The notes under the pieces: model-generated
What the model saw: only the letters and a program-made list of their open reading frames with translations
Told to the model about the DNA's origin: nothing
The model's database searches: none
NCBI GenBank assembly: GCA_963921825.1
Contig: OY997596.1
Coordinates: forward strand, 4,841,001 to 4,905,000
Reading direction: 5' to 3'
Length of the DNA stretch: 64,000 nucleotides
From: Erodium maritimum
Lineage: Eukaryota > Streptophyta > Magnoliopsida > Geraniales > Geraniaceae
Program-made: the position numbers and the translations under genes
Shown: piece by piece, positions 9,962-62,767 of the stretch
Position numbering within the stretch: the first letter of the stretch is position 1
Layout of the letters: each line of letters begins with the position of its first letter

Positions 9962-10029
9962 TCTTTCGCCCGGTTGATGACCTCGAGGTTGAAAATCTTA
10001 TCGTTATCGCCGACCAAAAAGTACACATA
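9962..10029 (-). CDS. alpha/beta-hydrolase, exon 3
   Basis: A 68-bp exon between an acceptor (TTGGCAG, ending at 10030) and a donor (GTAAGC, 9961 downwards). It encodes YVYFLVGDNDKIFNLE and a short tail. This is the family block that carries the catalytic Asp, equivalent to the WGENDQIFNLE stretch of Arabidopsis relatives (Asp about residue 243). It starts in phase 0, matching exon 2, and leaves two bases that join the first base of exon 4 to make Glu. Confidence 0.85.
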
Positions 10030-10116
10030 CTGCCAAGGTTTCCATAAGTATATATACATTAAGACGCGATTCAATTGATATATTTATATGTTAGGCATCA
10101 GTGGAAGCAAGTAAAC

Positions 10117-10209
10117 CTGAGGGAAACAAGGAGGAGTGTGAGGCTCTGCATCGGGGCGGACAAGAGCCTCCAGAAGCTCGCTTCTCTCTCTTCTATTATC
10201 GAACATAGC
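10117..10209 (-). CDS. alpha/beta-hydrolase, exon 2
   Basis: A 93-bp exon (31 codons, phase 0 at both ends) between an acceptor (TATGACAG, ending at 10210) and a donor (GTTTAC, from 10116). It encodes MFDNRRERSELLEALV and a short tail, matching the family stretch MF-NRKER-E-LEAL-. Intron 2 (10030-10116) is only 87 bp and free of repeats, in contrast to introns 1 and 3. Confidence 0.85.
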
Positions 10210-10262
10210 CTGTCATAATTTATTATATTTGTAGTAAAATACATATGTGCAGTACGTGGGAC

Positions 10263-10622
10263 ATTCACTGAAATGATATGCTAAATATGGGTATGAGTGT
10301 GAGACTTAATCTTGTAATTGGTATAAGTAAGTTTATATTTTATATTGTTAGAACTAATAACGTGTTTGAAACCATGTTGTAGTTGTTAGCTATTCTTAAC
10401 AGATAAGATATTAGTGGGATAATGGGTTAGTTTAGAGGTAGTCATATTATATAGGGATTATGGAGCTATAGTTGTGGGATTGGGTGATCCTTTCTTCTAT
10501 TTTTGTACTAGGCTCTACCTATAAATTGAGTCTGATTAGAGCTTTTTAGATGCACCAATAACAAAACAATTTCCCTGAAATAATGCAATTCACTGAAATG
10601 ATATGCTAAATATGGGTATGAG
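10263..10622. repeat. solo-LTR-like insert bounded by 35-bp direct repeats
   Basis: A perfect 35-bp direct repeat, starting ATTCACTGAAATGATATG, lies at 10263-10297 and 10588-10622. The 290 bp between starts TGTGAG and ends ATGCA and contains a CCTATAAATTGAG TATA-like box about 75 bp before its right end, which suggests an LTR. However, a 35-bp flank is far longer than the 5 bp expected for an LTR element. It lies in intron 1 of the hydrolase gene. Confidence 0.5.
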
Positions 10623-10707
10623 CTCATAATTGAATCTTTGCTATACACACACTATTAAAAACCTTATGATTGCATGACTCTAATATGGCACATACTTTTA
10701 CGTAACT

Positions 10708-10848
10708 GTTCTGTTTGATGCAGTGCCAACCATGTCATGCCAACAGTGTCATAAGTGTATATATGGAACTGTTTGATGCAGAGCCCACCATGAATCCATG
10801 ATGCAGAGCCTACCCCATCATCCCAATAGTATCATAAGTGCATATATG
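10708..10848. repeat. imperfect tandem duplication in intron 1
   Basis: Two units begin CTGTTTGATGCAG and end with a CATAAGTG(T/C)ATATATGG segment. The second is longer by an internal repeat of GATGCAGAGCC. Confidence 0.55.
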
Positions 10849-11039
10849 GGCGGGTGAAGGGTTGCATTGAGATCCACTACCTTCCAACTATTTTTTAAAT
10901 TTGTAGATCTATTAACCAAGATCTCTATTCTATTTAGAGACACGCGTAGTGTGAAAAGGGATCACATAATGTGGTGGACGTATTTCATAGGCTACCAGTT
11001 CTCTAATACAATCCATTGTAAAAGGACCACATGAAACTC

Positions 11040-12420
11040 GACAAGACTGTTGACCTCACTTTCAGCGCTTTCGTGTGTCATCGCCTGTCCGATCGACCCA
11101 TGACCTTGCTCTGAGTTCTCTGACAAGCGACACGAGACGTGTAGGGCATCAGCTTCCGTCTTGGGCCTTGCCTCTATTTCCCTCGGCCTGGGTTTTCCCT
11201 CGGGGTCCGGGATTGGGGACGGCTTGGGTTGCACGCTGGGACTCCTCATCCACCACTACGGTGGCTCGGACTCGCCAGATTCACCGTACGGGCGGGGGAC
11301 TTCTCTCTCAATCGGTGATTTCCTCTTCCACCGCTGTCCGTAACTGGGCGTGGTTTCCTGGTGGTGCGCGGGGTAACCCTAGTATCGGTCGTTGCCATCC
11401 TTCTCTGTTGGAGGCTAGGCGGGATGCCCTTACCCCTGCATGCACACGGCGGGACGCTACACCGATTCGGAACCGGTACTCACACGATGATTTCCCGGTG
11501 GCCCGCAGGGGATTGCTATGGAGGTCTCCAGTGCGGGGACCTCGACCCTGTCCGCGGCGGCCGGTGGTGGCTCATATGGGATTGCCTCCTTCGTGGGCTC
11601 ACGACAGGGATGGGCTTGTAGGAAGGCGGGGCTTAGGGGAGGATCACCCGCCCCTGATGTCCATGGATCCGTTACCTAAGGCCGGGTTGTCTCGGGGGTT
11701 GGGAGATAGCGTTTCCATGGATCCGTTACCTAACCAGGGACCACGTTGTCTCACCCGGACAACCGGCCCCTTTGTACTAGAGGCCTCCTTGGGTGCTTGA
11801 AGTTGAGCTCCCCGGGTTTTGTACACGAGAAGATTCTTGGGGGACCAGAATGGGATCAACACTCTGCTGATTTGATTGTTGCGACCCCGGGGAGCTACTC
11901 TGGAGGGTTTGGTGGAAGAGGGCGTGCGAATCTGGAAGCACCTCTTGTTGAAGTTCCATCGCCCATCGCTGAGGGATATGGGAGATGCAGGCAGGCTAGA
12001 GCACTAAAGAGGGCAGCAGCAGAGGAGTGGGTTGGCCAGGATCGAGTCTCAATTCAGGCGAGGGCTGGGAAACAGCCCCGCCATACCACATGAGTCCGTA
12101 GACATGCCTCGGGGACAGGTTGAAGGAATCCCTGAGTATGGCCTGTTTTTCTTTCACCACTGACGAACATAGGTTCGGTTTTACATCAGAAGAAGAGCGT
12201 GGCCCTCGAATGACCCAGCGGTATTCAAACCCTACCTTGAGCAGGGTTCGTCAGTCGTTTTTAGATTTTGGTTTTCGTTTCAATATTGTTCTAGTTAATT
12301 CTAAGGGTAGTCTTCAAAACGTTTTTGACGTTTATTGGGCATCAGAGTTAGTGTGTTTTCCTGTCATGACCCAAAATATGTATTAGCTCTTTAAAAACGT
12401 AATGGGAAGTAACGTCTTAC
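11040..12420 (+). mobile_element. X-family retroposon, copy X1
   Basis: A GC-rich insert in intron 1, plus strand. It carries the family signature: two MDPLP(K/N) motifs separated by a Gly-rich stretch (about 11660-11745), then FVHEKILGG, SADLIV and GGFGGRGRA (about 11820-11930). It ends in an A-rich tail at about 12420, where the intron sequence shared with the duplicate begins. The left edge is approximate and I found no target duplication. It has no RT or other enzyme motifs. Confidence 0.55.
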
Positions 12421-12731
12421 TAAAAAAAGGACTATTTTCAATCATCCTATAAAACAAGATAGATGATCCATATTAAAAAAAAAATCAATAATGACCTTCA
12501 TTGTAACGTACAGAATTTTAAATTTGTTTTTATTGGTTAAAACCCTTAAAAATATGGGTAATTGAATTCTCTTAATCTAACGGTTCATAATAATTTTTAG
12601 ATTTTGTTATGAATATGATTTTTTAAGCTTATGAATATAATTTTTAATAAGATAATTTTCACCTCAATACTCTAACTATTAATTTTTAATACATAATACC
12701 CCTTTGTATACATTTATATATACACACGTGA
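12421..12731 (-). repeat. intron-1 block duplicated at 21781-21920 and 27386-27510
   Basis: AT-rich intron sequence repeated in the partial gene duplicate, where it is split by LINE 2. A 37-bp stretch (about 12648-12684) is missing from the duplicate, at a point where AATTTTTAAT is repeated, so one copy lost or gained a slippage segment. Confidence 0.8.
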
Positions 12732-15700
12732 TATTCTATTTCAAAAATGCTCTGTAAACCCTAGGGTTCTTCCACAACCCTCCGGGGTCCATCTCCACCG
12801 TCGCCGACGGTTTCCCCTCATCAGGGCTCTGCGATCTGGCGTCCCCGTATACTTCCGGTCGTCTTCATCTGGTCCGTTGAGGTTCGGGTCTCCGAGTCAC
12901 TGTTGCGGCGTTGTGATTCCTGTAAGCCTCAGATCGTTTTCTGTTCCGTGTGACGTTCTCCAGTGGTGCAGGACAACTGTGACTCAGTTGTAAGGCTCCG
13001 TTGTTTGCTATCGGGGCGAGACGATCACCACTACTCTTGTCTCGTGTCGCTTAGGTCACCGGCTACTTCTCCAGGCACAGCTTGGTGTTGGGGAAGGGAG
13101 GATCAGCCGCACGTCTCTCTCCGATCCGCCGTCCCTATTCCCTTTGCTGATCAGGTAATTCAACATTGTTTCGATTACTTTGTTTAGGGTTAGGGTTGGT
13201 GTCTTGTGTTCTATTTCGATGCCGATCATGCTGGCTTGGAACTGTCGTGGATTGGTTACGGATCATAATCGGCGAAAGTTGAAGGACCTGGTTGCCCAAT
13301 TTAAACCGGACCAGTTATTTCTCACGGAGACCCGTCACGTCGACGCTCGGAACTCTCGCTCCAGACTCACCATCCTGAAACGGACATTAGGATTTCGTGG
13401 GGGTACAGGAGTTCCGGGAGTTACCCCCCGGCGATCCTAGGTTCCCGTCGTCCTTCAATTAAAGGAGGGGTTATGTTGCTTTGGTCTGAGAACTGTGTGG
13501 TGGGCGTCCTTTCGGACGAGAAATCTCATATAGATGTGGTGGTAAGATTTGCTCAGGAGTTACTGATACGTTTTACATGAATCTGTGGGGAATCGGTTTG
13601 GGAGAACATGTATAGAACTTGGGCTAATCTATGTCACCTAGCTACGGTCACTGCTACTTCTGATTGGGTGCTCATGGGAGACTTCAATGGTATCCTTCGG
13701 CCCTCGGAGAAAAGGGGAGGTCAACTGTATCCTCTAGGTCTTATGCAGGGGTTCTAACACGCTAGCTCGGCCATTGGGGTCGAGAAATTCCCATTACAGG
13801 GCTATCAGTTCACGTGGCCCCGGGGACATGATCCAGAGGCACAGGTAGAGAGTCGACTGGATAGGGCCTTCATATCTCCTCAGATTAGAGCTCGATTTAG
13901 AGATGTGTCGCTGCATAATCAGGGAGTCTCGACCTCCGAACATATGCCCATTTTATTGCAGATACAAAAGGAACTTGTGGAACAAAGGCCAAGGCAATTC
14001 AGATTCGAGAATATGTGGTTGGAGCATCCTGAGTGTGGTACTCTGGTTCAAGTTGAGTGGGGGCAGCCGAGAGGTCGTCACATAAAAAACCACATCAAAG
14101 ACATTGGGCAGTCCTCAGATGCGTGAGGCCAGACTGTCTTCCAAGATAACATCAATCAGATTCGCTCTCTCTAGAGGAAACTGGCCGGGCTAAATGGTCG
14201 CACCGATAGACAAGGCATTAGACGCTGATTGGCACTGCAGAAACAGTATAACCGAGCCTTAGCCAAACAGGAACAGTTTTGGCGCCACGAATGAAACAAC
14301 ACTGGTTGGGAGAAGGGGACGGAAATACGAAGTTTTTTCAGAGGTCAGCCACGAAAAGGCAGGCAAGAAACAAACTGAAATCTTTGGTTAATGACGAGGG
14401 GGTGGAGTTGAAGTGGCATACGGGGATGAAGGAGCTGATTCATTCCTATTTTTTTAATATCTTTACTGCGGGAGAAATTGAGGATTATGATTTGCCTATG
14501 CCAGTTCCTCATATGATCACTCCTCACCAGAACTTACAACTGACGAAACGGGTATAAGACATGGAAGTGCGACATGCAGTATTTCAAATGGGACCATCTA
14601 AATCCCCGGGCCCAGATGGTCTCAATCCGAAATTCTTCCAACACTACTGGGATACCTCATCCTCGGAGGTTTTCGAGTTTGTCCGGGCTGTAGTGTCAAC
14701 ATGCAACATCGATCAAGACATCAACAAGACTACTTTGGTCCTGATTCCAAAGATACCGGGGGCGAGGAAGATCACATAATTCCGACCTATAGCTCTCTAC
14801 AACGTCATATTTAGAATCTTATCCGAAGTCTTGGCAAATCGTCTAAAACCGCTCCTGGACCCAATCATTTCTACCAATCAAGGAGCTTTTGTGCCATGGA
14901 GGCATATTCAGGATGATATTCTCATTTCGTACGAGATTTTTCATACACTCAGGCGCCGGACGCAAAGGCCAGAGGAGATACATGGCACTGAAACTGGATA
15001 TGAGCAAAGCCTACGATAGAGTGGAATGGTCTTTCCTCTTATTGATGATGGGAGCTTTTGGTTTTGATATAGGATGGAGGTCCTTGGTCCTAGCTTGTAT
15101 GTGATCTATCCAATACACGGTGAGCTCAGATGGGAAGCATACGGCCCCCTTCACAGTTGGGAGGGGGATCCGACAAGGTGATCCGCTGTCCCCATATCTT
15201 TTCCTATTTTGCATGGAAGGCCTCTCCCGTATGCTCAATCAAGCGGAGAGGAATGAGACGCTTCACGGGGTCTCGGTGGCTAGAGGAGCCCTGGTAGTTT
15301 CCCATATCTTTTTTGCAGATGATTGTTATATTTTCTGTAGGGCCGATCCAGATGAGACTGCACAATTGAATCACATTCTGCAATCATTCGGTTACCTTTC
15401 GGGTCAGGTTATTAATAAGAGCAAGTCGTCCATATTCTTCAGCACCAATACATCTCCAACACACAGGGCGGCATGTTGTGGAATTCTAGGGATCCAGGAG
15501 ATCTCAGGTCCGACTAAGTACCTAGGGGTCCCGAATATGCTGGGAAGGCGGAAAGGTCAGAGTCTTCAATTTCTGTGTGATCGGATTGTGGCCAAAATAG
15601 GTACGTGGGATGGTCAGATTCTATCTGAAGGGGAAAGGAGGTGATGATACGATTAGTACTTCAAGTTATGTCGCTCTACGGCATGAGTGTTTTCCTGTTA

Positions 15701-17357
15701 CCCCGGTAATCCATCCACAAGATCCATGTCGTGTTAGCCTGATACTGGTGGACGGGTAATCCTAGAGGCACCAAACCGATTATCTGGCAGGACTGGACGA
15801 AGCTCTATAGACCGAAGGAGGCGGGGGGAATGAGGTTCCCGGACATGAGAGATATGAACATAGCTTTGTTGGCCAAAATGGGTTGGAAGCTATTAACCCA
15901 ACCAGATAGCTTGGTCGCCCGTATTTTCAAGGAAAGGTACTACCCAAAAGATGAATTCCTAACGGTAGATGGAGGTAATAACCCCAGTCAGATCTGAACC
16001 TGCCTTCGGACCACACAGGGCCTGCTTAGGCAGAGATTGATTCAGACTATTGGGGACGGTTGCTCGACTATGGTGGAGGGATCTCCCTGGCTTCTAGGGA
16101 ATACCCCGGTCATCCCACTTCACACATGCCTAACTCCGAGAATGAGGGTGTCGGACTTAGCTGCGGAAAGTGGCCAGTCGTGGGACATTTCAAAACTTCA
16201 ACAGAATCTCCTTCCGGTCATTTTGGAAGACATACTGCAGGTGCCTCCGCCCCTCCCACGACACATAGACAAATGGTCCTGGAAGTACAATATTTGGGGA
16301 ATCTACTCGGTAAAGGAAGGATACAGAGCGCTATCCCGGGAGAATGGTCGATGACACGTTTCGAATTGCTCGACGGTTTGGACGGGCATTTGGGACCTGG
16401 ACATCCAACCACGTATTAAGGTGTTCCTCTGGCGGGCTTTGTCTAACACTTTACAAGTTGCAGTCAATCTTCGGACAAAATTTTTTCCGATTCTGGATAC
16501 TTGTCTAATGTGTCAGAGTAATTCGGAGACTACCGACCATCTCCTCCTCCACTGCCCTTTTGCCAGATCCGTTTGGGATCTCTCAGGGTTGCAGGTCTAT
16601 ATCCCTTCCTCAATTACATTACACGGCTGGTTATCTCTTTGCTGCAATTACCAGATATGTTGATAAAGAGTAAAACGAGCCTCTTACTTTGGGAGATTTG
16701 GAAAGCAAGGAATTGTAAGGTCTGAGACCATACTAATCCTACCCCACAGGGCATCCTCGCTATTGTACTTAGCAACCAATGTAGTTGGTCAGAAGCCCAG
16801 AATGGTCGACCCAAACCCACTGTTGTTCCCCACTGCAGGCAGACGAGCTGTACTCCGCCACCTCCAAATTGGTCCACTATCAATGTGGATGGAGCGACCT
16901 TTGCAGACTCAGGGCATTTTGGCTGAGGGTGGCTTTGTCGAACAGAGATGGGAATGGTTCTAGAAGGGAGGAGTGGTAGTGGGAGTAGCATGCTGGGCCC
17001 CGAATACTCTGAAGTCATGGCTGTTTATCAAGCTCTGCAATGTATTCAAACCTCGCACCTATCCAGGGTAATTATTCGTAGCGATACTCAGTACCTGGTA
17101 CACTTTATCCAAGGATCTCATCAGGTCTTTTCTCCTTTGGGCCGATTGGTTGACGAATGTTGAACCCTTCTAGCTGTTCTCGAGGATGTTAAACTCGAGT
17201 ATGTCTCCAGGTCAGCGAACGGAGCAGCCCACTGGATAGCTCGGGAAGCCCGTTCTATGCCTGCCCTTTCGTGGTCCGGATTTATTATTCCGGATGCACT
17301 CAAATGTATTTTGCAATAATTCAAGTAATAAATCCCGTTCTTCCGTTTCAAAAAAAT
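12732..17357 (+). mobile_element. LINE 1, L1-type non-LTR retrotransposon with RNase H
   Basis: A 4.6-kb element inserted in intron 1 in the antisense direction to the gene. Near-duplicate target sites ATATATACACACGTGA (12716-12731) and ATATATGTACACACATGA (about 17359-17376) flank it, and the duplicate intron at about 27510-27530 shows the unoccupied site. After about 480 bp of GC-rich leader (with no recognisable ORF1) comes ORF2: endonuclease, reverse transcriptase, a zinc-binding zf-RVT region and RNase H, then a short A-rich tail. ORF2 is split by several frameshifts and stops, so it is dead. Confidence 0.88.
13219..17320 (+). pseudogene. LINE 1 ORF2 remains (endonuclease, RT, zf-RVT, RNase H)
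   Basis: The ORF starts MPIMLAWNCRGL, the usual apurinic-endonuclease start of plant L1 ORF2. The RT core runs about 14561-15644, with SKSPGPDGLNPKFF, a LKLDMSKAYDRVEW block, GIRQGDPLSPYLF and a FFADDCYIF box whose two catalytic Asp residues are kept. The zf-RVT region follows at 16421-16663 (FLWRALSN and a CLMCQ...TDHLLLHCPFA pattern). RNase H spans about 16870-17320, with NVDGATFADS, EVMAVYQAL, IIRSDTQYLV and the SANGAAHWIARE end, and stops at 17318-17320. Frames change between these blocks and there are in-frame stops (for example near 14780 and 15105), so the frame is broken at least five times. Confidence 0.85.
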
Positions 17358-17629
17358 ATATATATGTACACACATGAATTAAAACGGAATACTTTAATAA
17401 TCTGATTACATTAATGTCAAGATAAAAAATATGATTAAACTCATAATTAATTATAATCTATATTTTGAGACTTAATTATTTTTTATTGGTTTCGACTTGG
17501 TTTTATGTGCACTTTTAACTTGTGTCAAATTTTATTTCAGTTCCACATGTAAAGTTTGGAAATTTTGTCTAATTTAAATTTCAGTCCTATCTTTAAAGTT
17601 TCATGTGTAGTTTTAAACTTTTAACTTAC
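17358..17629 (-). other. intron 1, part next to exon 1 (duplicated at 27510-27766)
   Basis: AT-rich sequence matching 27510-27766 closely. It includes the donor GTAAGT at 17624-17629. The duplicate has GTGAGT at 27761-27766. Confidence 0.75.
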
Positions 17630-18235
17630 CTCAAAATAGTGTCGGTAAACCCAATTGGGTAACGGGATCATCTTGTAAGTGCCAGCATCAATGAGCGCCT
17701 TCAACCCCTCCACGGTGGTCGGAAGCAAAAGCTCCGGCCACGACCGACATCGCAGCCGCTCCAGCACCGCACCGCTGATCGACTCCGTCAGCGCAACCAC
17801 CGCCCCGGATATAACCAACCTCCGCACCAACTTCGGGTACGTCTCGGCCATCCTGAACCCTACGAACCCTCCGTACGAGAACCCAACCACCGTGCACCGG
17901 TCGACTCCAAGCTTGCTCAGCCCCTCCGCCACACACTCCGCCTGGAACTCCGGCGACCGGTCCGGTCTGTTGGTAGACGACCCGCCGAAGAAGAGGAGGT
18001 CCGGGACGTAGAGTTGGTACTTCCGGGCCAGCGCCAGCGCCTGGAAAACCCACGTGATGGTTCCGTTTCCGGTGAAGCCGTGGAGGAACACGACGGCGGG
18101 GTTGGATCTCCACCGTTTTGGGACCCAGAAGTGCATGGTGGTGCCTGGCTCGATCTCCACCGTTTGGGATCGTAGACCGGCTAGTTTCATGAGCATGTTC
18201 AACAATGGGTTCACAACCACGAATAAGTTCATCAT
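17630..18235 (-). CDS. alpha/beta-hydrolase (ABHD6-like), exon 1
   Basis: This exon encodes the first 202 residues of a 300-aa serine hydrolase. The start is ATGATG; the second Met (18232) is the one kept in the duplicate and is the likelier start. Visible parts: an N-terminal hydrophobic stretch (residues 4-20) that may anchor the protein to a membrane, the oxyanion HGFTGNG (52-58), the GFSYGG nucleophile elbow with Ser at about 120, and the end YRHYFE followed by GTAAGT. Exons 2-4 supply the Asp and His of the triad, so all three catalytic residues are present. The closest known relatives are plant alpha/beta-hydrolases of unassigned substrate (the Arabidopsis At4g33180 type), usually annotated as lipase or monoacylglycerol-lipase-like. 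The substrate is unknown. The total of 300 aa equals the family's usual length. Gene span is 12 kb because of elements in introns 1 and 3. Confidence 0.9.
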
Positions 18236-18297
18236 TTTTTTTTCGTGATGTTCAAATGGGTGTAATCTCTAGTGGGAAGATAAATTGTTCGGATGAC

Positions 18298-18306
18298 ATT
18301 ATATAC
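18298..18306 (-). promoter_or_regulatory. candidate TATA box of the hydrolase gene
   Basis: The coding strand reads TATATAATG about 65 bp upstream of the start codon, in a context GTGTATATAATGTC. The duplicate has GCATATAATG at the same place (about 28446-28455), a weaker match. A TATA box here implies a 5' UTR of only about 30-40 nt. Confidence 0.45.
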
Positions 18307-18435
18307 ACAAAAGGAGATGCATGTGGTTGTTTGCTACGATAAATGTTCTTCACTTAAATATATTTTATTTTATTTATCAACTTTTTATTTGTTGTCATTT
18401 TGCTTTTGTTTCATGTAAGATTTATATTCTTTTTA

Positions 18436-18781
18436 GGGTAAATAATATGTACTTACTCAAATTTGTAGCGTTTAACTGATATATACTCTAAATTTTTTTA
18501 ATTGATACCTACTCTGATGTTTAGTTATATAACAAATATTGCAAACCGTCAACTAAAATGACGAAAATACCCTCAACTACACTTCAATAATTATTTAAAA
18601 AATATATTTAAAAATCGCTTTTGTTACATATATATATGTATATGCACTTTCATCATTTTAGCTGACAGTTTGGGCTATTTGTAATATAACTAAACATCGG
18701 AGTAGATATCAGTTAAAAAAAACTTTATGATAGGTATCAGTTAAACGTGACTAGTTAAGAGTAGATATTTGTAATTTACCC
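18436..18781. mobile_element. Mutator-type MITE upstream of the hydrolase gene
   Basis: A 346-bp insert with terminal inverted repeats starting GGGTAAAT and extending imperfectly over about 50 bp (both arms contain ACTC and GTTTAACTGATA). It is flanked by a 9-bp near-repeat, TTCTTTTTA and TTCTTTATA. The paralogous site at about 30255 reads TTCTCTATATTG with no insert, which proves the insertion and its limits. A 9-bp target duplication fits Mutator-like elements. The left half of a related copy lies at 33936-34106. Confidence 0.8.
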
Positions 18782-19076
18782 TTCTTTATATTGATATATC
18801 AAAGGTAATGATCAATATTTGTTTGTCCAATTCCATGTCATGTGATGATGCATCGTAGCTCTTCATTGTAACTGTTGATGAAAAGTTGCATGAAGAGAAT
18901 TATATAGACGAGTTGATTGATCCCCAAGTACATACAATATTCTCATTTATAAAATCTCATACACCATCAGATAGAGAGAGAAACAGTAGAAGGACTTCGA
19001 AGACCAGAATCATCAAAGGTGTTATGAAAATTAACAAGGTCTTCCGTTTACATGAAGTTAACAATGACTAAAGGTG
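18782..19076 (+). pseudogene. degraded copy of the conserved segment at 30246-30543
   Basis: This stretch matches 30246-30543, including an open stretch with IIKGVMKINKVF. In this copy the frame is closed by a stop (TAG near 18857) upstream of the region that is open in the other copy. I recognise no family. It lies upstream of the hydrolase first exon in both copies, so it belongs to the duplicated block. Confidence 0.45.
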
Positions 19077-20865
19077 AAATATGTGTAAGTAGAGCTTCTC
19101 TCTCTTCAGAGCTTCTCTCTCTTCAGAGCTTCTCTCTCTAGAGAAACCCCTATAGCTTCTCCGCCTTTTCGTCTTCTTCCATCGCCGGCAACACTCTGGC
19201 CTCCTCGGCCATGGCGTTGCTGGAGGTGGTTCACTTCTTCAACCCGTCCTCTTTTTCTCTTAAGCGCCCTTTTTCTTCCTTCTTCCCCCTTTTCGTCTCG
19301 CCTTCGCTCCAGATCCAAAAACTAGATGGGTTAGATGGCCTCTGTCACTTCGCCGGACACTCCGAAGGTCGTTGGATTGGTGTTGGCCACCATCGATTTT
19401 AGTGACAAGGGGGATTTGGGTGGCCGAAAACGGTGACCTTCATCGGTCTTTCGTCCTCTTTTTTCTCAGATCTGTGGTTCCTTCCGTTTCTTCTTTTTCT
19501 TCCTCTCCTTCGGCTCTTCTCGGCTTTCCTCCCCTGTAGCTTTTGCCTCCCCCTCTGTGGTGTTTCTCCTCTTTCGACGATGACAGATCCGATCTGTGTG
19601 GGACATTTTTTTCCCCTGTGGTGATGACGAGTTTTGGGTCCGTTTTCCGTTTTGTTTCTTGTCTTCTCCGGATCTCGTCTTCTCGAGGTGGTCTCCTTGC
19701 TCCAGATCCGTTACTTTTCCTCATCTGTTTCTCGGGGGTGTCCGGGCCTCGTCGGAGCGACGAGGGGTTTGGGTCAGTTTGGACTTGATGAGGTGGTTTC
19801 GGAGCTGTAGGAGGGATCATCCTCTTCGGGCAGTCAGATCTGGTTTTGCTGGAGCAGCTAGCTTTCATCCCTACGCGTCAAGGTTCTTGGAAGTGATTTT
19901 GTTAATCTCTTTTCTTCATATTTACTCCTCCCTGACCAAAGCTGTCTGCCTTGTCATCTTGGACTCGGTCTCTCCCCTTGGGTCGTCGGTTGGTGTAGGT
20001 CGCCGTCTGGATCTCGATGAGATCTGAGATTGATTGATCTGAATCACTTTCTTCCCTCTCTTATCCTCGAATCGGTTCATCCTCCTCTTCCGCTTTTACT
20101 AACTTCCTTCTCTCGTCTTCGATTCTGTGGACGAGGCTTAACATTTGGTGCTGGCCTTAGTTGGGTTTTGCCTAACGGTTGTTGGAAGTTATGTGATTAG
20201 GGATTAGGGGGCTTTGAAAAGATTTTGACTCGGTGAGGGTTAGATCTCCCGGTATACCCACTTGGGTACTGGATATAGGTTGGTGTATTGTGTGGAGGAA
20301 GGTTGGAATCACACTGCTGCAGATATCTTGGACCCGGGAGTGTATGGGGTGGAACTTTGGGAGTGGGAGCGTCTCTGTTGTTCTTTGGGGGTACCTTCTC
20401 GGTGGTGCCTCGTCACTCTTCCTTCTTTGGGCTCGTGTTTTGGGCCGGTGGTGTCCTTTGTCCGGCCGGTGGTGACCGGACGTGTTTCGATTCTTGGAGC
20501 TGGAAGGTGGATCGGAGCTGCCGCTGGTCGGCGTCAGGCTTGCGCGGGGTTTGAGTCTGGGTAGTTTTCCCTTGGTTGGGCCTAGGTTTTTAGTGTTTGG
20601 GCTGGGCTCGTGGTTGTTGGTTTCCCCTGTTGGGCCTTTTCTAATTGTTTGGTTGGGTTTGGCCCGTGTTGTAGTTGTCTTTAGGTTGCTGAATTTGTTT
20701 ATCTGGTTCTGAGACCGTTGGTTTAGTTTGATTCCCCTTGTTGGGTTTCTGTTTGAGGCTCCTGGCAAGTCTCTTGTTTGTAAGGTTGTACTGAGGGCTT
20801 GCCCTTGACCTTCAGCTACACTTTGTAGCTGTTTGGTTTTTAATAAAAAAAATTGTTGATAAAAA
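19077..20865 (+). mobile_element. non-autonomous retroposon with 17-bp target duplication
   Basis: Flanked by perfect repeats AACAATGACTAAAGGTG at 19060-19076 and 20866-20882. It ends in TTTTTAATAAAAAAAATTG and a run of seven A, so it was copied by a LINE-type mechanism. The 5' end has three copies of a 21-bp CT-rich repeat (AGCTTCTCTCTCTTCAG type, 19092-19142). The interior is pyrimidine-rich and has no enzyme motifs. The 3' end holds a small inverted repeat (GGGCTTGCCC) followed by CAGCTACACTTTGTAGC, which resembles the 3' end of LINE 2 (GGGGGCTTTATCCCC then CAGCTTTGTAAAC). It may therefore have used that LINE's machinery. Confidence 0.8.
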
Positions 20866-20882
20866 AACAATGACTAAAGGTG

Positions 20883-21780
20883 CATATGTTGCCGGAGGGG
20901 ATGGTGACTCTCTCCTTGTGACCTCAAGGATGGAGGCACTGCTGTGCTTCAACGCCGCACGAGGGTCTCTCCCTTGTGTCAAACGGCCGGATGGGGTGCT
21001 GCTGCGATTCTTCGGAGGGGCTAGTGGAGCTGGTGAGGCTTTGGGTTGGGGCAGGAGCTGGAGCCCCAACCCTGGTGACAATGGACCCGATACCTAAAGT
21101 TTGGTCATCTCGAGGGATGGGGACCGGGGTAACAATGGACACGGTACCTAATCCGGACCCCCGAGCCCTTACTAGGGATGCCGGTCAAGGGACTACGACA
21201 AGCCTCCCTGGGTGGTCCTATACGGGATCCCCGACTTTTGTACATGGGAACATCCGGCGAGCGGTGGATGGAGATCAGCCCTCTGCTGATTCGATTGTTG
21301 CCCTACAGTCGCGAGAGTGGGGTGGAAGTGGTGGTTGTGGTTGTACCCACCTAGGAGCGCGTGGTGGGAAGGCTCCGACGCCACTGGCTCAGAGGATTGT
21401 AGCTGCTGATGGATGGGGAGGAATGGTGAATGCGTCTGGCTGGCACGTCAACTCACAGGCAGGGGAGATGCCCCATTGTGAGGAATGAGGCATCAGTGGA
21501 GCATCAGGGACTGGCCTTAGGAGGGGTCCCTAGATTATGCATTGCCTCCCACCATCACTACTACTATCGAGGTCCTTCGGGATCTCCGTACCACGTTCCC
21601 CCTCCCCGCCTTCTTTCTTTGCCCATGGGGCGTCACAATACCGTCCATGATGGTTCTAGTACTAAAAAGGTATGTGAACCAATGTTCGCTTATACTGACC
21701 TTTCATGGTCGAGAAGCATGTTTCTCGACGCATTTCAATGTAATCGTTCACAATGATTAATAAAATTGCAATTCGTCGTT
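20883..21780 (+). mobile_element. X-family retroposon, copy X2
   Basis: Plus-strand GC-rich insert with the family signature: TMDPIPK and TMDTVPN separated by a Gly-containing stretch (about 21078-21155), a FVHGNI..SADSIV block, a Gly-rich segment, a GGAGGGGTCCCT box at about 21520 and an AATAAAATTGCAA tail ending in eight A at about 21790. It fills the space between the right edge of the first duplicated block and the left edge of the second. Confidence 0.6.
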
Positions 21781-21920
21781 AAAAAAAAGACCATTTTCAG
21801 TCGTTATATAAAACAAGATAGATGATCCATATTAAAAAAAATCAATAATGACCTTCATTGTAACATACCGAATTTTAAATTTGTTTTTATTGATTAAAAC
21901 CCTTAATAATATGGGTAATT
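21781..21920 (-). repeat. duplicated intron-1 block, left part
   Basis: Matches 12421-12550. It ends with AATATGGGTAATT (21908-21920), one copy of the LINE 2 target duplication. Confidence 0.8.
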
Positions 21921-22323
21921 TTTTTTTTGATAAATGATGTTTTATTCGAAGATTTGGAAATGAAAAGTTTACAAAGCTGAGGGGATAAAGCCCCCAAAAA
22001 TAACCTCCAAAGACAAAGAACAACCAAAGAAGATTAACTCCTGCGAGCACAAGTAAAACAAAGAGACGGAAAAGACATCCATAAGGATAAACTCGCCCCC
22101 TCGAGTAGGTCCCCTGCCATCTTGCAAACACTGAAGCTGTGTGTCTGCAACTTGAGAAAAGTTGCCTCAATAGACTCAAACTGCTGCCTGAATACTGCAG
22201 AATTTCTCTGCAGCCAAATGTGCCAAAAACATAAATAAGCCACTTGACCCAAACCTTCCACCATCTCTTACTACTAAGCCACCTCCAAGCGAACAAACAG
22301 GATACACAATCCCCCGGCATAGT

Positions 22324-25300
22324 CTAAACAATTGACCACCAAGCATAGACCTTCGACCATAACCGCCAAACAAACTTACAGTGAAGGAATAAATGAGAGG
22401 AATCCTCAAATATCATAGAGCATAAGCTGCATAACATGTCCTGAATCGAAACTCGTACACCCCTCTCCTCCAGAAAAACCTTAGTCGGAACAGCATTGTG
22501 AGCTAGTAACCAAACTAAGGAGCTGTACTTGGGCGGAAGGTTCTTGACCCAAAGAATACCGGCCCAAGAAACTGGAGACGGTTTAGAATCTGAAAGCAAA
22601 AGGTAAGCAGAAGCTAAGGAGAATCCTGCTTCCCTTTGCGACCAGGTTACCAAATCAGGGGAGTCCGGCCTAACCGATACCAAACTCAGAAGGTCCATGA
22701 ATAATGCCGATTCGTCCCACTCATAAGAGAAAAGGAAAGAGCGACGATAGAATAGAAGCCAGGTATCAGCAGACCACAGTTCACCGACTCGTAACCACTT
22801 CCCTGTGCAAATAAGATAAAGCCGAGGGAAGCGGTAACGGAGGGCCATAGGACCAACCCAAACGTCCTGCCAAAAAAGAATACGATCGCCTCTCCCAAGC
22901 TTCCAATGAAGACTCTGATTCCCGAAAAGGTTCCTGAAAGGCTGTTCTGCAGACAAAGCCATAATGTGACTGAAAAGAAAGGAGGAACCTGGTTTGTCTA
23001 GTGCAGTGAGGTCCCATTCACTCTGATCCCAACCGAACTTGGCGCGCAAAACCTGCTTCCAAAGAGAGTATTTTTCAGAAGCGCAACGCCCAAATCATTT
23101 TGCTAGCAGACTGTTATTCACCCTCTCCAGGCCTCGAATACCCAAGCCACCATCAGTCTTTGGCTTACAAAAAGAGGACCATCGAACCTTACAAAACACA
23201 CGGGTCCAAGATCTATTGTGCCAAAGGAACCGTCTTCTCCAGGCTTCCAATTCTCGTATGACTCCCTTGGGAGCCTTGAACAGCGACATAAAGAAAATGG
23301 GCAACGCTGAGAGAGTGGACTTGATCAGGACTAACCTCCCTGGCATGGAGAGATCATTTGTCTTCCACAAGGCAAGAGATTCCTTAAATTTTTTGATAAC
23401 AGGGTCCCAGAAAGACAATCGCCTTGGGTTTGCTCCCAAGTTAAAACCAAGGTATTTGATTGGTAACGAGCCAACCAGACACCCCAAAGAAGAAGCCAAA
23501 GAGTCTGAGCACAGGGTCCTAGCGTTCAAGAGAATGGCAGTGGACTTCTCAAAATTAATCTTCAGTCCCGAGCTGAACTGGAAGGTAAGAAGGGTGCTCT
23601 TAAGCCTCAGAAGGTCATTCACAGACCCTTGCACAAAAAGCAGAGTATCATGTGCGAACTGGAGGTGAGAAATGATAGGACCTGCAGAGCCAATCCGAAC
23701 TCCAGAAAACTCTCCCAACCTGATACCCTCTTCAAGAACCTGATGCAAACCCTCTGCAGCTATCAAGAAAATAAACGGGGAGAGGGGCAGCCTTGCCAAA
23801 TCCCATTAAGTATAGGGAAATCACGGCTAGGCGATCCATTCACCAGAACAGCTAAAAAAGCCCGAAAACAGGATGCCATCCAAGAACACCAGGTCGGCCC
23901 AAAATTCATAGCCACCATCACCTCCTCAATGTAATCCCAATTGACCTTGCCAAAAGTCTTCTCAAAGTCAAGTTTGAGGACAACCGTTTCCTCACCAGAA
24001 TGACGGACAATATCAATAACCTCCGAGGCAATCAGGACCCCATCAACTAGCTGTCTACCTGCAACAAAACCTGATTGAGGATCGCTGATAACATCATTCA
24101 GAACTTGACAGAGGCGATTAGATAGAACTTTTGCTAGGATCTTGTAAGGGCCTGAAATAAGACTTATAGGTCTGAAGTCCTGTATTCTGTCAACATTTCG
24201 GATCTTAGGGATCAAGGTGAGGAAGGTAGAATTCAGCCATTTTCCTATGGTACCTGAAACAAAGAATTCAGAGAACAATCGAAGCAAGTCATCCTTGATA
24301 ATATCCCAGCAGACTTTGTAAAAAAGCATAGAGAAACCATCAGGGCCAGGGGCCTTTTCAGGACCACAGTCACAAATAGCAGCATAGATCTCCTCAGATG
24401 AGAAAGGCTCTTCCAAAAAAAGACGACTGAAACCCAGAAAGCCTTGCGAAAGGTAGCTCTGGAAGTGGGACACGAACTCCTGCAGGTTTCGAAAAATGAA
24501 TGCTAAAGTGATCTCCAGCATGGTTCTGAATGCCAGTAGGCTCAGAAAGCATAACTGATCCCGAACAGAGCTGGTGAATTTTGTTCCTTGAAGCTCGGAG
24601 ATTAGCAATCTTATGATAAAAGCGGGAGCAAACATCTCCAAGTTTATGCCAACGTAAACGAGCCTTTTGACTCCAAATTCGAGCCAGCACCTTTTGCTTG
24701 CGGATCAAAGCTACCTGAACCAGCGACCGTGATAAACATTCCTCCCATGATAGCTCCCGGTCATATAGAACCTCATCAAAAGTATCGATCTCAGCTGCAA
24801 GAGCTTCGACCTCTAGGTCCACCCGTCCGAACACATCCTGGCTCCATCTCTGCAAGTCATTTCGCAGACACTTCAACTTGAACCAGAGAATATAACTCGC
24901 AGAACCTTGGCAGATATAAGAATTCCAAAAGGCCCGAACATCTGGCAAAAAGAATTTGTGCTCGGTCCAGACATTGAGGAATCTCCTAGGTTTAGGACCC
25001 CAGTTAACGTCAGTAGAAGACAAGGTGATCGGCCGGTGATCGGCCGGTGATCGGATAATGAGCGAGGATGGCTCTGTTGCGAAAGAGTTCCAAAGATGAT
25101 AAGAGCATAGGGGGATAGAACAAACCGATCGAGGCGCGAAGCCTTTGATCCACCACCATACCAGGTGTACTTCGAACTTGAGAGGTTAATATCGACAAGC
25201 TCCATACGCTGCAAAAAATCAGCAAACAGGGCACAATCTGAAACAGAAGAAGTGGAGTTGCGACGCTCCTCAGGGCATAGGACTGATTTGAAATCTCCCC

Positions 25301-25718
25301 CTGCTATTATGTCTTCATTGAGAGATGCTCTATCAGCAATCAACAATGCACAAAGAAAGTGGTGACCAGACGATGTCGAAGGACCATAGACATTGAGTAG
25401 TGTTAAAACAGAACCTGTGGGAAGGTAAGTGCCAGACCAAATTAAAGCAGTGCCGATCGGTTTGGAGGATGTGAGATGAAACACAAATGATTTCCATGCG
25501 GACAGGACCCCCCCTGAAGCACCATCAGATGGAATAAAGATGAATTCCCACCCTAAGAACAAGCCACAATCACGAAGAAACCCAGCCGAAATGTCAGTCG
25601 CCTTTGTTTCCTGAAGCATCACAAAATCAGGCCGGAGAAGAAGTACTCTTCTAATATCTCTCCTCTTATGAGGAGAGCCCGCTCCTCTCACGTTCCATGA
25701 GAGGAGCTTCATGTGCAA
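22324..25718 (-). pseudogene. LINE 2 ORF2 remains (endonuclease, RT, zf-RVT)
   Basis: The ORF starts MHMKLLSWNVRG. The endonuclease blocks LQETKA, GGDFKSV and SDHRPI are visible. A short repeat of GATCGGCCGGT (25026-25056) disrupts the end of this domain. RT follows: EKAPGPDGFSMLFYK, LTLIPK, FRPISL, LKLDFEKTFGKVNW, then FAHDTLLF where the usual FADD has His for its first Asp, which should abolish polymerase activity. The zf-RVT region at about 22324-22600 ends in a CSLCS...HLFLHC pattern. Unlike LINE 1 there is no RNase H. The C-terminal tail continues to about 21975. Confidence 0.85.
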
Positions 25719-25809
25719 TCCGAGTTATGAGGTGTGGAGGCAACCCGAAATGAAGTGCCACCACCGGAATCCACGCAGGGTCAGAAAAATCATTGTCCTC
25801 AAGTTGGAG

Positions 25810-27358
25810 TTACCCCGAGACCTCGGCGTCCAAGTTTTCAAATTGTTCCTTTACTTCTCCCCCAATTGCAAGTGCCTTAAAACCCAGTTCCTTAATGTAA
25901 TTCCATTTACCAGAACCAGATGGAGAAGGTTTCGTCGGGCTTGATACCTGAAAGAATTTTTGGGCAGAGGACGAACGTTTCCTGCGAGAAGATGGAGCGT
26001 CGTGCGTTCCATGCAAACCAGAGATCAAGGGTTTTGAGGCGAGATGTATTGCAGAAAGGCCCAACTCAGATTCAGGAACAATAACATTATCCCCAGAGCA
26101 CAAACAAGAGTCCTCATAATCTTGGAAACCTCTAGTGGATAGAGGAGATCGATCCAAATCAAATTCGGAATTCAAATTTTGAGCCTTATCGTCACGCGCT
26201 TCTGCAACAGGACTCACCGACAACGAATCTGATGATTCCGACGGTGATTCCGATGAAACGACTCTCCGGGGACACACGGGCAGAGGAACAAATGAGGCTT
26301 GGATTGCATCAACCCATAATTTGAAAGACTCGCCATTCAAGAAAAAAGGAACTGATTGTGCAGAGAGACGGGAGACAGAATGCACCAGAACAAAAAAAAC
26401 CCTCGAAATCCTTTCTTATAACCTGTAAAACATCCCCAAGAGTCTTTCCAATCGAAGTGAAATTCTCAAAGCTCCAACCTTGGACCGGCATTCCAGTAAT
26501 AGAGACCCATTGGAAGAAGCCTAGTTTTGTGAAGAGCTCACCAGAGGTACGAACAATGTCGAACCAAGGATTTAAAGAGGCCCAATCCACATCACATTCG
26601 GTGTGAAAGATCATAAAAACTCTGTTTCCAAAACTCTTGATCTCGAAGTTAAGAAGTCCTACAGAGTTCATAGCTTCTAAAAGAGCTTCAGTCGAGGAAA
26701 AAGAGTGTGAGATCCCAATGGCACTAGATAGGACTTTCAATTTCAAATCAGGGACCTCAACACCCACAATTGGAGCCAAGGGTTCATCGGGTTGAGGGGG
26801 AACGATGGTAGTAGGCTTCCAAGTGGACCGGGATTGACGATTTGGATCATGCCAAGCGGGAACCACAAGGAGCTTACGACCAGCAAAACGTTTGTTGTTC
26901 AATGAAGCAGTTATCCTAGAGAAATCCTCGGCCGAGTCAGAGTGAACAAAACAAAAGGGTCGGCCTGAAGCGATAGATCTCTGACTGAGATAAATGCCCG
27001 TGACGCTGCCATGCTCAGCGAAGATGCGATAGAGCCAAGGTTCCTTTGCGAGAGGGGGGAAGTTGCTGATAAAGAGTTTACAAGGATCTAACCGGCGTTG
27101 CTGATCAGAAGAGCGCGGAGGAGAAAGAGGGACAGAGGTTATGTTGAGAGCAATAATGGCCTGAGAAGCCCGAGCAGAAGATTCAAACCTGGTAATCAGG
27201 GACGCCACTTTTGGATTAGGAGGTTCTGAGAGAAACCTGTGAGAGGGGGTGGAGACGGAGCGGCCGGAGATGGTGCTTGCCGTCGAAGCCCAGGTCCCAG
27301 AGTCGTCGGATGAAGAGTCCCCTTCGGTTCGAACTCCTCTCAGAGAGAGAGAATCCAT
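25810..27358 (-). pseudogene. LINE 2 ORF1 (RRM type)
   Basis: The open part at 26309-27358 encodes 349 aa. A Ser-rich N-terminus is followed by an RRM fold (about residues 94-170) with RNP2 LFISNF and RNP1 GRPFCFVH, and then a second conserved region with FGNRVFMIFHTECDV. The frame shifts near 26340, and a Ser-rich C-terminal part continues in another frame to 25810. RRM-containing ORF1 proteins are the RNA-binding partner in plant L1 elements. It is separated from ORF2 by about 90 bp. Confidence 0.8.
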
Positions 27359-27385
27359 TTCTTTTGGCTCGAAGCGACTTAAAAA

Positions 27386-27766
27386 AATATGGGTAATTGA
27401 GTTCTCTTAATCTAACGGTTCATAATAATTTTCAGATTTTGTTATGAATATGATTTTTTTTAGCTTATAAATATAATTTTTAATACATAATACCCCTTTG
27501 TATACATTTATACATATACACACATGAATTAAAACGGAGTACTATAATAATCTGAATACATTAATAAGATAAAAATATGACCAAATACACAATTAATTAT
27601 AATCTATATTTTGAGACTTAATTATTTTTTATTGGTTTCGACTTGGTTTTATGCGCACTTTTAAATTGTATCAAATTTTATTTCAGTTCTGCATGTAAAG
27701 TTTGGAAAAAATTTCTAATTTAAATTTCAGTCCTATCTTTAAAGTTTTATTAAACTTTGAACTCAC
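27386..27766 (-). repeat. duplicated intron-1 block, right part
   Basis: Matches 12548-12731 and then 17358-17629, so it is the ancestral intron without LINE 1. It contains the donor GTGAGT at 27761-27766. Confidence 0.8.
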
Positions 27767-28381
27767 CTCAATATAGTGTCGGTAAACCCAATTGGGAAAC
27801 GGGATCATCGTGTTAGTGCCAGCATCAAAGAGCGCCTTCAACCCCTCCACGGTCGTCGGAAGCAAAAGCTCCGGCCACGACCGACACCGCAGCCGCTCCA
27901 GCACCGCACCGCTGATCGACTCCGTCAACGCAACCACCGCCCCAGATATAACCAACCTCCGCACCAACTTCGGGTACGTCTCGGCCATCCTGAACCCTAC
28001 GAACCCTCCGTACGAGAACCCAACCACCGTGCACCGGTCAACGCCCAACTTGCTCAGCCCCTCCGCCACACACTCCGCCTGGAACTCCGGCGACCGGTCC
28101 GGTCTGCTCGTGGCCGACCCGCCGAAGAAGAGGAGGTCCGGGACGTAGAGTTGGTATTTCCGGGCCAGCGCCAGCGCCTGGAAGACCCACGTGATGGTTC
28201 CGTTTCCGGCGAAGCCGTGGAGGAACACGACGGCTGGGTTGGGTGGTTTGTTCTTGGAGGTGGGTTTTGGGACCCAGAAGTGGATGGTGGTGCCGGGCTC
28301 GATCTCCACCGTTTGGGAACGTAGACCTGCTAGCTTCATGAGCATGTTCAACAATGGGTTCACAACCACGAATAAGTTCAT
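27767..28381 (-). CDS. alpha/beta-hydrolase, duplicated first exon
   Basis: 205 codons, close to the exon at 17630-18235 at nearly every residue. It has HGFAGNG, the GFSYGG nucleophile elbow, and an end YRHYIE followed by donor GTGAGT. It carries a longer linker (PTSKNKPPNP) where the other copy has RWRSNP. No match to exons 2-4 exists between it and 18.3 kb. It is therefore an orphan exon, an alternative first exon for the downstream exons of the other copy, or a 5' gene fragment. Read-through into the intron would add 27 unrelated residues and stop at 27683, leaving a protein without the Asp and His of the triad. The frame is fully open, which suggests either recent duplication or continued use. 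Confidence 0.75.
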
Positions 28382-28540
28382 CGTTCTTTTTTTTTTGTGA
28401 TGTTCGAATGGGTGTAATCTATATTAGGAAGATAATTTGTTCCATGACATTATATGCACAAAAGGAGATGCATGTAGTTGTTTGCTACCATAAATGTTTT
28501 CAATTTTCATTTAAATATTTTTTATTTTATTTTTAAAGTG
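28382..28540 (-). promoter_or_regulatory. upstream region of the duplicated first exon
   Basis: Matches 18236-18390, so the promoter was duplicated together with the exon. The candidate TATA lies at about 28446-28455 (GCATATAATG). The match stops at about 28540, where a 1.65-kb insertion begins, and resumes at about 30205. Confidence 0.5.
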
Positions 28541-28639
28541 CCCCACCGATTTGGAATGGGTTGGAAGATGTAAATAAGTCACGCCGTTTTATTATTGAAA
28601 TTTTTTTAGCTCTGCGATATGAGTTCTGCTAGCTAGGGT

Positions 28640-28865
28640 TTTAGAACCTGTAATCCATGCGATGGCTTTTTTCCAAGGTTGTTGTAGTTTCTCTCGACCT
28701 CAATACGGTACTGTTGCTCCATCGATATGGCGGCCATCCTCTTTACCCTCTCATGTTCGTCCACTGCCCACGAAGGTCATCACTACTCAATTCTCATCTT
28801 CCCCGATTTCCCCAATCTCTCCCCAACTCCCATCGCCACCGACATCGCCTGTCCCTTTCCCAATT

Positions 28866-28907
<42 letters not shown>

Positions 28908-29473
28908 CTCGTCTGCTACTGCCTCTTCCCCGATTGATATCAGAGGCAACTCTTTGAAGCCTCCACCGTCGTCTCCAAAGTCAAATCAATCGCCGTCTCT
29001 GGCACGTCCTTCTCCTTGGCCTCCACCACCGCACCCTCCTCGACCCCTTTCTCGATTCTGGATCTGACTAATCGAGTGTGTCTTTTTTATTTTATCTGAT
29101 TTCATTTTTGCAGGGTCAAAATTTAGTACGTAGAGATTCAGAGACTTGTGCTATAGGGAATGACCCTAGAAGGGGTCCCTTGGAAGAGCTCTGCCTCCCG
29201 AAGAAGTGGATGATAGCAGGTTCGGTCGTACTCTATTGTGCATGCAACGTTTATGCAAGACGTCGAGCAGTCGTAGTCAACTTCGTCTAGTTTTAGTGTG
29301 TCGCCTTTAAGGAATCATATCCAAGACCGTCAAGCACGGTCATGTTATGAAAAGATCAGCGAACATTGTCAGTTACCTATGCTTGTTCGTCGTGGTCAAA
29401 GAGTCTCTGATGCACTTTGTTGTTTTTGAAATTCTTGATTAATGAAAACTGCACCTTTTAGTATAAAAAAAAG
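28640..29473 (+). mobile_element. X-family retroposon, copy X4 (probable)
   Basis: The 3' part has a GACCCTAGAAGGGGTCCC segment at 29161 and GCTCTGCCTCCC, like the matching box in X2 and X3, and ends TAATGAAAACTGCACC followed by an A-rich tail at about 29473. The 5' part is Pro/Ser-rich in translation and contains the poly-G tract. The left limit is approximate. It is a weaker match than X1-X3. Confidence 0.4.
28867..28906 (+). repeat. T10-G30 homopolymer tract
   Basis: Ten T followed by thirty uninterrupted G. Such a run could form a G-quadruplex. It could equally be a sequencing or assembly artefact, so its exact length should not be trusted. Confidence 0.7.
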
Positions 29474-30245
29474 TCAGACCGTTTTTTTAACAACCGCAAA
29501 TAATCGCATGGAACAAATTATACATTACAATACTAGATAGGTTTAACTTATATGTTTCAAGTTTTTGTAATGCAAGATGTCGAGAGTCGATATAGTGATG
29601 TTCCTCAAGTTACACCTTCGAAGACAAGGTAATATATCATAAGAAGCTTCTTCCGCTCAGTTTCAAGATGGATCTAACTCTAATTGTCAATGGACAAACT
29701 CATTGGGGCCGGTCATCGGTGCTACTTGTTCCACGACATTGGTCTTGTCGAGTCGGAAGCCCCCCACCCTTTTAAAGGAAAAATCCGACCAAAACAACAT
29801 TACAGTTGTTGCACTGATAGAGAAGGGTAAGAAAAAGAGGGGAGTCACCGAGGTATTGTCACAATCTCGTGGACCTAGAAATGGTCAACACATAAGGGAA
29901 GATCATGATGGACTGAGATGTGGATAAAAGGCTTCTCATCCCACCTGCAACACTAGGGAGTACATGCTCATGATGAACATTGGGTCCATAGTTCGTGGTT
30001 ACCTTATGATGAGAACAAAGTTCGACGACGTAGATTCAAGAGAGATGTTGGCGCTTTGAACCAGTTAACTTCAGTACTATATAGAATTTGAAATTTTGTC
30101 TTACTTTATTTTCTTAGATTCTTTCCTTAATTACATGCATATGGTATTGTAGGATTTCATGTGTTTGTGTCTGAGTTACTTGTTTTTTCCAATGCATTTA
30201 GGATTTCTTTATTTCTTGTTATTTTGCTTGTGTTTCATGTAAGAT

Positions 30246-30543
30246 TTATATTCTCTATATTGATATATCTAAAGTATTGATCAATATTTGTTGGTCCAAT
30301 GTCATGTCATGTGATGATTCATCGTACATCTTCATTGTAACCATTGATAAAAAGTTGCATGAAGAAGGTTATATAGACAAGTTGATTGGTCCCCAAGTCC
30401 CAACATTCTCATTTACGAAATCTCATACACCATTAGATAGAGAGAGAAACAATGGGAGGACTTGGAAGACCAAAATCATCAAAGGTGTTCTAGAAATCAA
30501 CAAGGTCTTCAGTCTACTTGAAGTTAACAATGGCGGGAGGTAA
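30246..30543 (+). CDS. conserved open segment, possible exon, family unknown
   Basis: An open reading stretch of about 88 codons with no true ATG at its start (the first in-frame candidate is TTG at 30277). It ends at GGGAG followed by GTAAGTGC, a good splice donor. It contains DDSSYIFIVTIDKKLHEEGY and a basic IIKGVLEINKVFSLLEVNN end. The related stretch at 18782-19076 is closed by a stop. I do not recognise the family. An exon of an unknown or decayed gene is possible, as is a transposon fragment. Confidence 0.3.
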
Positions 30544-31079
30544 GTGCATCCTTTTTCTGCAATTCAAATTCTAACATGATTATAAATCACATGCTAGGAC
30601 TTACATTCATATAATATTGTGAAACTTTACAAGAGAGACTTAATAAAAACGTCTTCCAAATAAAGTATACATTGCCTAGATATTATGAAGACACAAGATT
30701 TGTATCGTTACATTCGTGTCATGGAGTTAGGTGTCCTCAGTATTTGAAAGACGCGGAAAATAAAGTTTCATCTTTCCAACTGCCATTACAGAGACACAGT
30801 TTCGATGTGTCGTATCAACACGTTCATTGTGTCTCTCGAGTATATCTGTTTGAAAACACAACTTTCAAATGTTTTTCTCTCACATGGGTGTACTTGGAAG
30901 AATGACTTAATATGTTTAATTTCCTAATGAGAGAAAATTAGAAGAAACAAATAGACATGTGAATCTCGCACCAATTCCACTTGTTGCCCAAATTGTACTT
31001 TGCAGTCAATTTAGAATTTCAATAATTCAAAATAATTATTAATAAATAATTCTTTCTAAAAATTTTATAAATAATGATT
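30544..31079. other. no recognised feature
   Basis: AT-rich sequence. A 78-codon ORF (30672-30905) has no recognisable motif. Confidence 0.4.
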
Positions 31080-62189: not shown

Positions 62190-62193
62190 TATA

Positions 62194-62713: not shown

Positions 62714-62767
62714 TTGGGTTGGTTCACAAGTTCGCACCAATACTTGCGGTTTGCACCCGAAACTAAA

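Follow-up and report, generated by a model that had tools for sequence, protein, structure and literature searches.

Two duplicated first exons on one gene body are an arrangement already known from PEP1 of Arabis alpina and from human PGM1. Here we describe a further such locus in Erodium maritimum, within a stretch of 64,000 nucleotides (contig OY997596.1, positions 4,841,001 to 4,905,000, called the window below and numbered from its first letter), where two homologous first exons of a predicted alpha/beta hydrolase gene stand in tandem, with parts of the promoter and of intron 1, ahead of one set of downstream exons. PEP1 carries a tandem partial copy of ~2 kb with part of the promoter, exon 1 and part of intron 1, giving exons 1a and 1b; in accession Dor, complementary DNAs (cDNAs) join both first exons to one exon 2, and 5′ rapid amplification of cDNA ends gives separate start sites (PMC3527215). 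The same text cites other plant genes with related overlapping configurations and considers that the partial copy was possibly derived from an array of full-length genes (PMC3527215). Human PGM1, an older case among enzymes, has two paralogous coding first exons, two promoters and shared exons 2–11 (PMC7101342). Alternative first exons of Type I in rice and Arabidopsis are described as mutually exclusive with downstream exons in common (PMC2174465). The word stems "duplicat" and "tandem" are absent from the main text of that survey, so duplicated first exons are not addressed there in those words, and no further plant case was recognized by title among the matches listed.

One gene body with two first exons

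All exons of the gene lie on the minus strand. The lower exon 1 (17630–18235; 606 bp, 202 codons) and the upper exon 1 (27767–28381; 615 bp, 205 codons), the latter ~10 kb upstream of the former, each begin with ATG, are open throughout and match Pfam Abhydrolase_1 (5.7e-20 and 1.2e-19, respectively), with a protein identity of 91.7% between them. Both end in the same phase at a GAG codon, followed by the donor GTAAGT in the lower exon and GTGAGT in the upper. The shared part consists of exon 2 (10117–10209; 93 bp), in frame between an AG acceptor and a GT donor, exon 3 (9962–10029; 68 bp) and exon 4 (6086–6221; 136 bp including the stop codon), which join either exon 1 in frame to give 300 amino acids (lower) or 303 (upper). 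A tblastn search of the whole window found no second set of exons 2–4, the next-best match having an expect value (E) of 1.6. A preliminary description of this DNA had already noted two open first exons ending at GAG with good donors, a single visible set of exons 2–4, and products of 300 and about 303 amino acids with different linkers, and every part of that account held: the lower linker reads RWRS where the upper reads PTSKNKPP. Its placing of a read-through stop near 27683 also proved right, as translation through the upper donor ends after a further 27 codons; through the lower donor it ends after 2.

The product of this four-exon gene is predicted to be an alpha/beta hydrolase fold enzyme. 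The 300-residue spliced protein scores 85.9 bits against Abhydrolase_1 (cutoff 25.8) and aligns near full length with PDB 6i8w, an alpha/beta hydrolase of known structure (E = 1.4e-11). Exon 1 holds a GFSYGG nucleophile motif, exon 3 a GDND segment aligned to the GDRD segment of 6i8w, and exon 4 an AGH segment aligned to its CGH segment; we take these to be the catalytic triad segments of the spliced product. Because the GDND and AGH segments sit in exons 3 and 4, a complete catalytic site would not be expected from exon 1 alone. Searches of NCBIfam gave 21 matches per isoform, every one under its cutoff, and Rfam at gathering thresholds gave none.

A generic donor matrix, applied to the 3690 minus-strand GTs of the window, places the donor of the lower exon 1 in the top 0.05% and that of the upper in the top 0.14%. 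The donors of exons 2 and 3 are far weaker on the same matrix (0.2 and 0.9), and since these scores are low, the boundaries there rest on frame and family alignment. Chance was considered as the source of the open upper frame and is rejected on the basis of mononucleotide shuffles, which kept the frame of the upper exon open in only 15 of 20000 cases.

Self-comparison of the window revealed five colinear homologous blocks between the copies, on both sides of exon 1: 27506–28532 with 17356–18375 (90% identity), 30251–30532 with 18782–19066, 30208–30254 with 18384–18430, 27383–27485 with 12548–12649, and 21780–21920 with 12421–12563. The duplicated unit is ~1.6 kb in size and comprises 492 bp upstream of the ATG, exon 1 and ~509 bp of intron 1. 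With later insertions included, the upper copy spans 21780–30548, its right end set by alignment, and the lower copy 12421–20882, set by homology blocks and alignment, both on the minus strand. The order along the plus strand is exons 4-3-2, a retroposon (R1), the lower unit, a second retroposon (R2), the upper unit and native upstream sequence. The preliminary description had expected different promoters, which holds in a particular sense: ~0.5 kb of ancestral upstream sequence is common to both copies, and native sequence beyond that is found only at the upper copy. The native distal upstream region thus stayed with the upper exon 1 and the short path to exon 2 with the lower exon 1 (an intron of 7.4 kb, versus 17.6 kb from the upper exon 1), and neither copy is simply "the gene" with the other "the extra". 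The part of intron 1 beside exon 2 also contains an exact 35-bp direct repeat (10263–10297 and 10588–10622) and a 51-bp repeat of 82% identity (10716–10766 and 10799–10849).

Probable constraint on the upper exon and its probable use

Divergence between the two first exons was compared over 197 aligned codons, after setting aside the linker (8 codons in the upper exon, 4 in the lower) and the additional Met with which the lower exon begins. Twenty-four codons differ, 9 of them by replacement, and path counting yields 16 synonymous and 10 nonsynonymous differences. The ratio of nonsynonymous to synonymous divergence (dN/dS), which the preliminary description had put forward as a check, comes to 0.19 (dN 0.023, dS 0.118; bootstrap 0.08–0.39), a value that covers both exon lineages together. 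With one copy unconstrained from the duplication onward, a ratio of ~0.5 or more would be expected. In the noncoding parts of the unit, 96 of 950 aligned sites differ and there are 10 gap events; the Kimura two-parameter distance (K2P) is 0.109. Nonsynonymous differences are fewer than expected from synonymous sites (Fisher P = 5e-5) and from noncoding sites (P = 2.8e-8). Homogenization of the exons by gene conversion left no sign, because synonymous divergence is similar to that of the noncoding DNA (P = 0.77 for the difference). Given neutral rates of 1.5e-8 to 4e-9, a neutral divergence of ~0.11 would date the duplication to ~3.6–13.6 million years ago, which is old enough for constraint to show.

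A neutral simulation was run in which one copy was unconstrained and all 10 replacement differences were put on that copy. The model is simple, with single hits and one rate for all sites; two-thirds of gap events were counted as frameshifts, and the linker change was placed on the lower copy. With one free copy ~21 replacement differences would be expected, and the 10 observed have P = 0.0026–0.0037, according to which copy is taken as the start, or 0.0065 once the uncertainty of the neutral divergence K (95% range 0.087–0.131) is included. Jointly with the lack of any stop or frameshift the probability falls to 0.0006; the absence of a stop alone is unremarkable (0.39). These results lend statistical support, at the level of the sequence, to protein-level constraint on the upper exon 1 over much, if not the whole, of the period that followed the duplication.

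Which of the two exons has changed more can be approached through relatives. Of the 9 replaced codons, an Arabidopsis relative would side with the upper exon at 5 (I33, A58, F185, F195, I204) and with the lower exon at one (K at 191), 3 being undecided. If so, the exon beside exons 2–4 would be changing faster and the upper exon would be better conserved, which is a lead rather than a test. The lower linker holds an 11-bp copy of sequence found 47 bp earlier in the lower exon 1, and for that reason it looks like a templated patch and hence derived. Bacterial relatives were dropped as a means of polarizing the changes; the lid region of one of them looked unlike ours by eye. A first scan of bacterial genomes confirmed 0 of 12 candidate stretches; in a second, 60 stretches yielded 3 loci, at 35–38% identity. 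Relatives in the PDB (92 and 86 distinct sequences at E ≤0.001) are as distant as the bacterial ones, and the few alignments inspected, among the best 60 of the 92 and 86, did not settle the changed residues.

Constraint on the upper exon is most simply explained if that exon is used, and we consider that it probably serves, or for a long time served, as an alternative first exon joined by splicing to the shared exon 2. The ~1.6 kb tandem duplication would have put a second promoter and first exon inside the first intron of the gene. A transcript from the upper promoter would skip the lower exon 1 and join the upper exon 1 to exon 2 over 17.6 kb; such skipping is possible because a first exon has a donor and no acceptor. 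From the lower promoter, the lower exon 1 would be spliced to exon 2 over 7.4 kb. The two proteins would differ in exon 1 only, among other places near the lid and in the linker that precedes the first core strand, and would have in common the exon 3 and exon 4 segments needed for catalysis. The preliminary description had left the choice between splicing from either exon and an orphaned upper exon; the ratio is 0.19, the neutral simulation speaks against an orphan free of constraint since the duplication, and use as an alternative first exon, with predicted splicing to exon 2, is favored for at least much of that period.

Several observations weigh against this use of the upper exon. The constraint signal would also be expected if the upper copy had once been a complete gene. 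The upper donor is the weaker of the two (5.7, compared with 7.6 for the lower). The intron from the upper exon to exon 2 is long at 17.6 kb, and it contains a sense-oriented long interspersed nuclear element (LINE2, described below) that could end transcripts early. A stretch of 1.7 kb parts the upper proximal promoter from the remaining upstream sequence. In the simulation, freedom of the upper copy for about half of the period is compatible with the data (P = 0.44 for the count and 0.09 jointly), and with K as low as 0.07, which is below its 95% range, the replacement count alone becomes unremarkable (0.15).

Among the competing accounts, the one with appreciable weight, though we regard it as unlikely, is a tandem duplication of the whole gene, after which a functional upper copy lost exons 2–4 and left its exon 1 as a recent relic that has not yet decayed. 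The same low dN/dS and intact frame would be predicted, freedom for about half of the period would fit, and the deletion breakpoints would match the edges at 20882 and 21780; the origin from a full-length array considered for PEP1 is a parallel. However, two events are required instead of one, and near the upper copy there is no trace of exons 2–4 or of 10030–11060, which holds exon 2 and adjoining intron. An upper exon that has been an orphan fragment, without use ever since the duplication, would be in keeping with the interruptions of its promoter region and intron and yet is improbable, given 10 replacements where ~21 are expected (P = 0.0065; jointly 0.0006). We give even less credence to expression of the upper exon by itself, in which reading through the donor along the further 27 codons would make a truncated protein of 232 amino acids lacking the acid and the histidine of the triad. 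Both copies retain a good donor, the lower copy lacks the extension, its frame stopping after 2 codons, and the first 255 aligned intron sites have diverged like the remaining noncoding DNA (K2P 0.110). Least probable of all is a false duplication assembled from two haplotypes. Such artifacts do happen in heterozygous plant genomes, but the window contains no N, 10% of noncoding sites differ, and LINEs, retroposons and a miniature inverted-repeat transposable element (MITE)-like element differ between the copies. Differences of this extent exceed what is expected of ordinary alleles.

The junction and later insertions

Between the two copies lies R2 (20883–21779, plus strand), a retroposon with a poly(A) tail. 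The tail directly adjoins the intron homology at 21780, and the left end directly adjoins the end of the upstream homology at ~20882. Its 5′ end is provisional, because similarity to a relative at 8372–7679 (67.6% over 710 columns) begins only at 21076, ~190 bp inside the element. R1 (11021–12420, plus strand) occupies the same position of the intron at the lower copy and has patchy similarity to R2 of 71–75%; the lower unit starts at its A-tail, and its 5′ end is placed solely by a possible 8-bp target-site duplication, AAAAGGAC. The layout around R2 matches that of an element lying between the two copies of its target-site duplication, but the repeat measures ~1.6 kb, compared with the 16–17 bp around a third retroposon, R3. 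It may be, and we offer this tentatively, that a single insertion of R2 into intron 1 created the duplication of promoter and exon 1 as an oversized target-site duplication, the alternative first exon having since been kept by selection. R2 would have primed in an older retroposon's A-tail and resolved at a nick ~1.6 kb away, and each copy of exon 1 would then represent one half of a single target-site duplication. Other routes may apply: R2 may have inserted at the join of an ordinary tandem duplication, or a deletion may have come after a full duplication. Unequal crossing-over between two flanking retroposons was rejected; it predicts that the right edge, near 30548, carries a related element, and BLAST of 30549–31400 against the window found none. 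Apart from itself, that segment matched 24 bases of R3 (E = 0.045) and 23 bases at 61534–61556 (E = 0.16), both taken as chance.

Kilobase target-site duplications have been described for the human L1 element. In excision-repair-deficient cells, one report describes insertions flanked by direct repeats, some of 1–7 kb, most with A-tails and typical endonuclease sites (PMC5223499). Kilobase duplications are also stated in a second report, which did not find them in CSA-deficient cells (PMC5717806). The L1 cases in the first report resemble R2 as an inserted element between direct repeats (PMC5223499). They differ in that they concern an engineered L1 in human cell lines, with a minority at atypical sites, whereas the event at R2 is inferred from an old locus. 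Our search of the literature on kilobase target-site duplications gave human-focused matches only, none with the word "plant".

Four insertions are younger than the duplication, because the other copy is uninterrupted at each site. LINE2 (21920–27384, ends approximate; minus strand) lies in the upper intron 1, sense to the gene, with reverse transcriptase (RT), endonuclease and zf-RVT domains and a target-site duplication of ~13 bp; its empty site is at 12548–12563 in the lower copy. LINE1 (12730–17355, ends approximate; plus strand) lies in the lower intron 1, antisense to the gene, with RT and zf-RVT domains and an empty site near 27509–27526 in the upper copy. R3 (19081–20867, plus strand) occurs in the lower copy only, with its direct repeat on both sides. 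The MITE-like element (18435–18782; 72% self-inverted match) interrupts only the lower promoter, the upper copy being uninterrupted at 30251–30254; part of it resembles 33971–34113. The 1.7 kb stretch in the upper promoter only (28533–30207, 151 bp from the ATG) appears as a gap in the homology, which breaks from 28532 to 30208 in the upper copy versus 18375 to 18384 in the lower, and is either an insertion in the one or a deletion in the other. It includes a run of 30 G at 28877–28906.

Elsewhere in the window, intron 3 has a 186-bp direct repeat (6410–6595 and 7417–7600, 95.7% identical, ~0.8 kb between), possibly the terminal repeats of a short element. Two copia-like elements, recognized by eye from their frames, lie in inverted arrangement at 34291–52171. 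They include 1689-bp repeats (37337–39025 and 44111–45799) that are 99.94% identical, and 48196–52171 matches 41335–37337 inverted at 96%; the pair looks recent and rearranged or nested. Further self-inverted, MITE-like elements are at 62193–62714 and 52452–52749.

Comparison with PEP1 and PGM1

Through duplicated first exons on one gene body a gene can gain another promoter and another isoform, for which PEP1 is a documented plant case, and the junction described here suggests a way in which these pairs may originate: a single insertion of a retroposon whose target-site duplication is oversized. In anatomy, PEP1 and the Erodium locus are the same, each with a partial tandem copy and one set of downstream exons. 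PEP1 is a MADS-box flowering-time regulator whose two products are predicted to be identical in accession Paj (PMC3527215), whereas the locus described here is predicted to encode an alpha/beta hydrolase with 9 replaced codons, a changed linker and several transposon insertions. Splicing of PEP1 was shown by cDNA, and in Erodium it is predicted. PGM1 is alike in that both of its first exons encode part of an enzyme, as they do here; it differs in that the first-exon segments are only ~51% identical in protein (PMC7101342).

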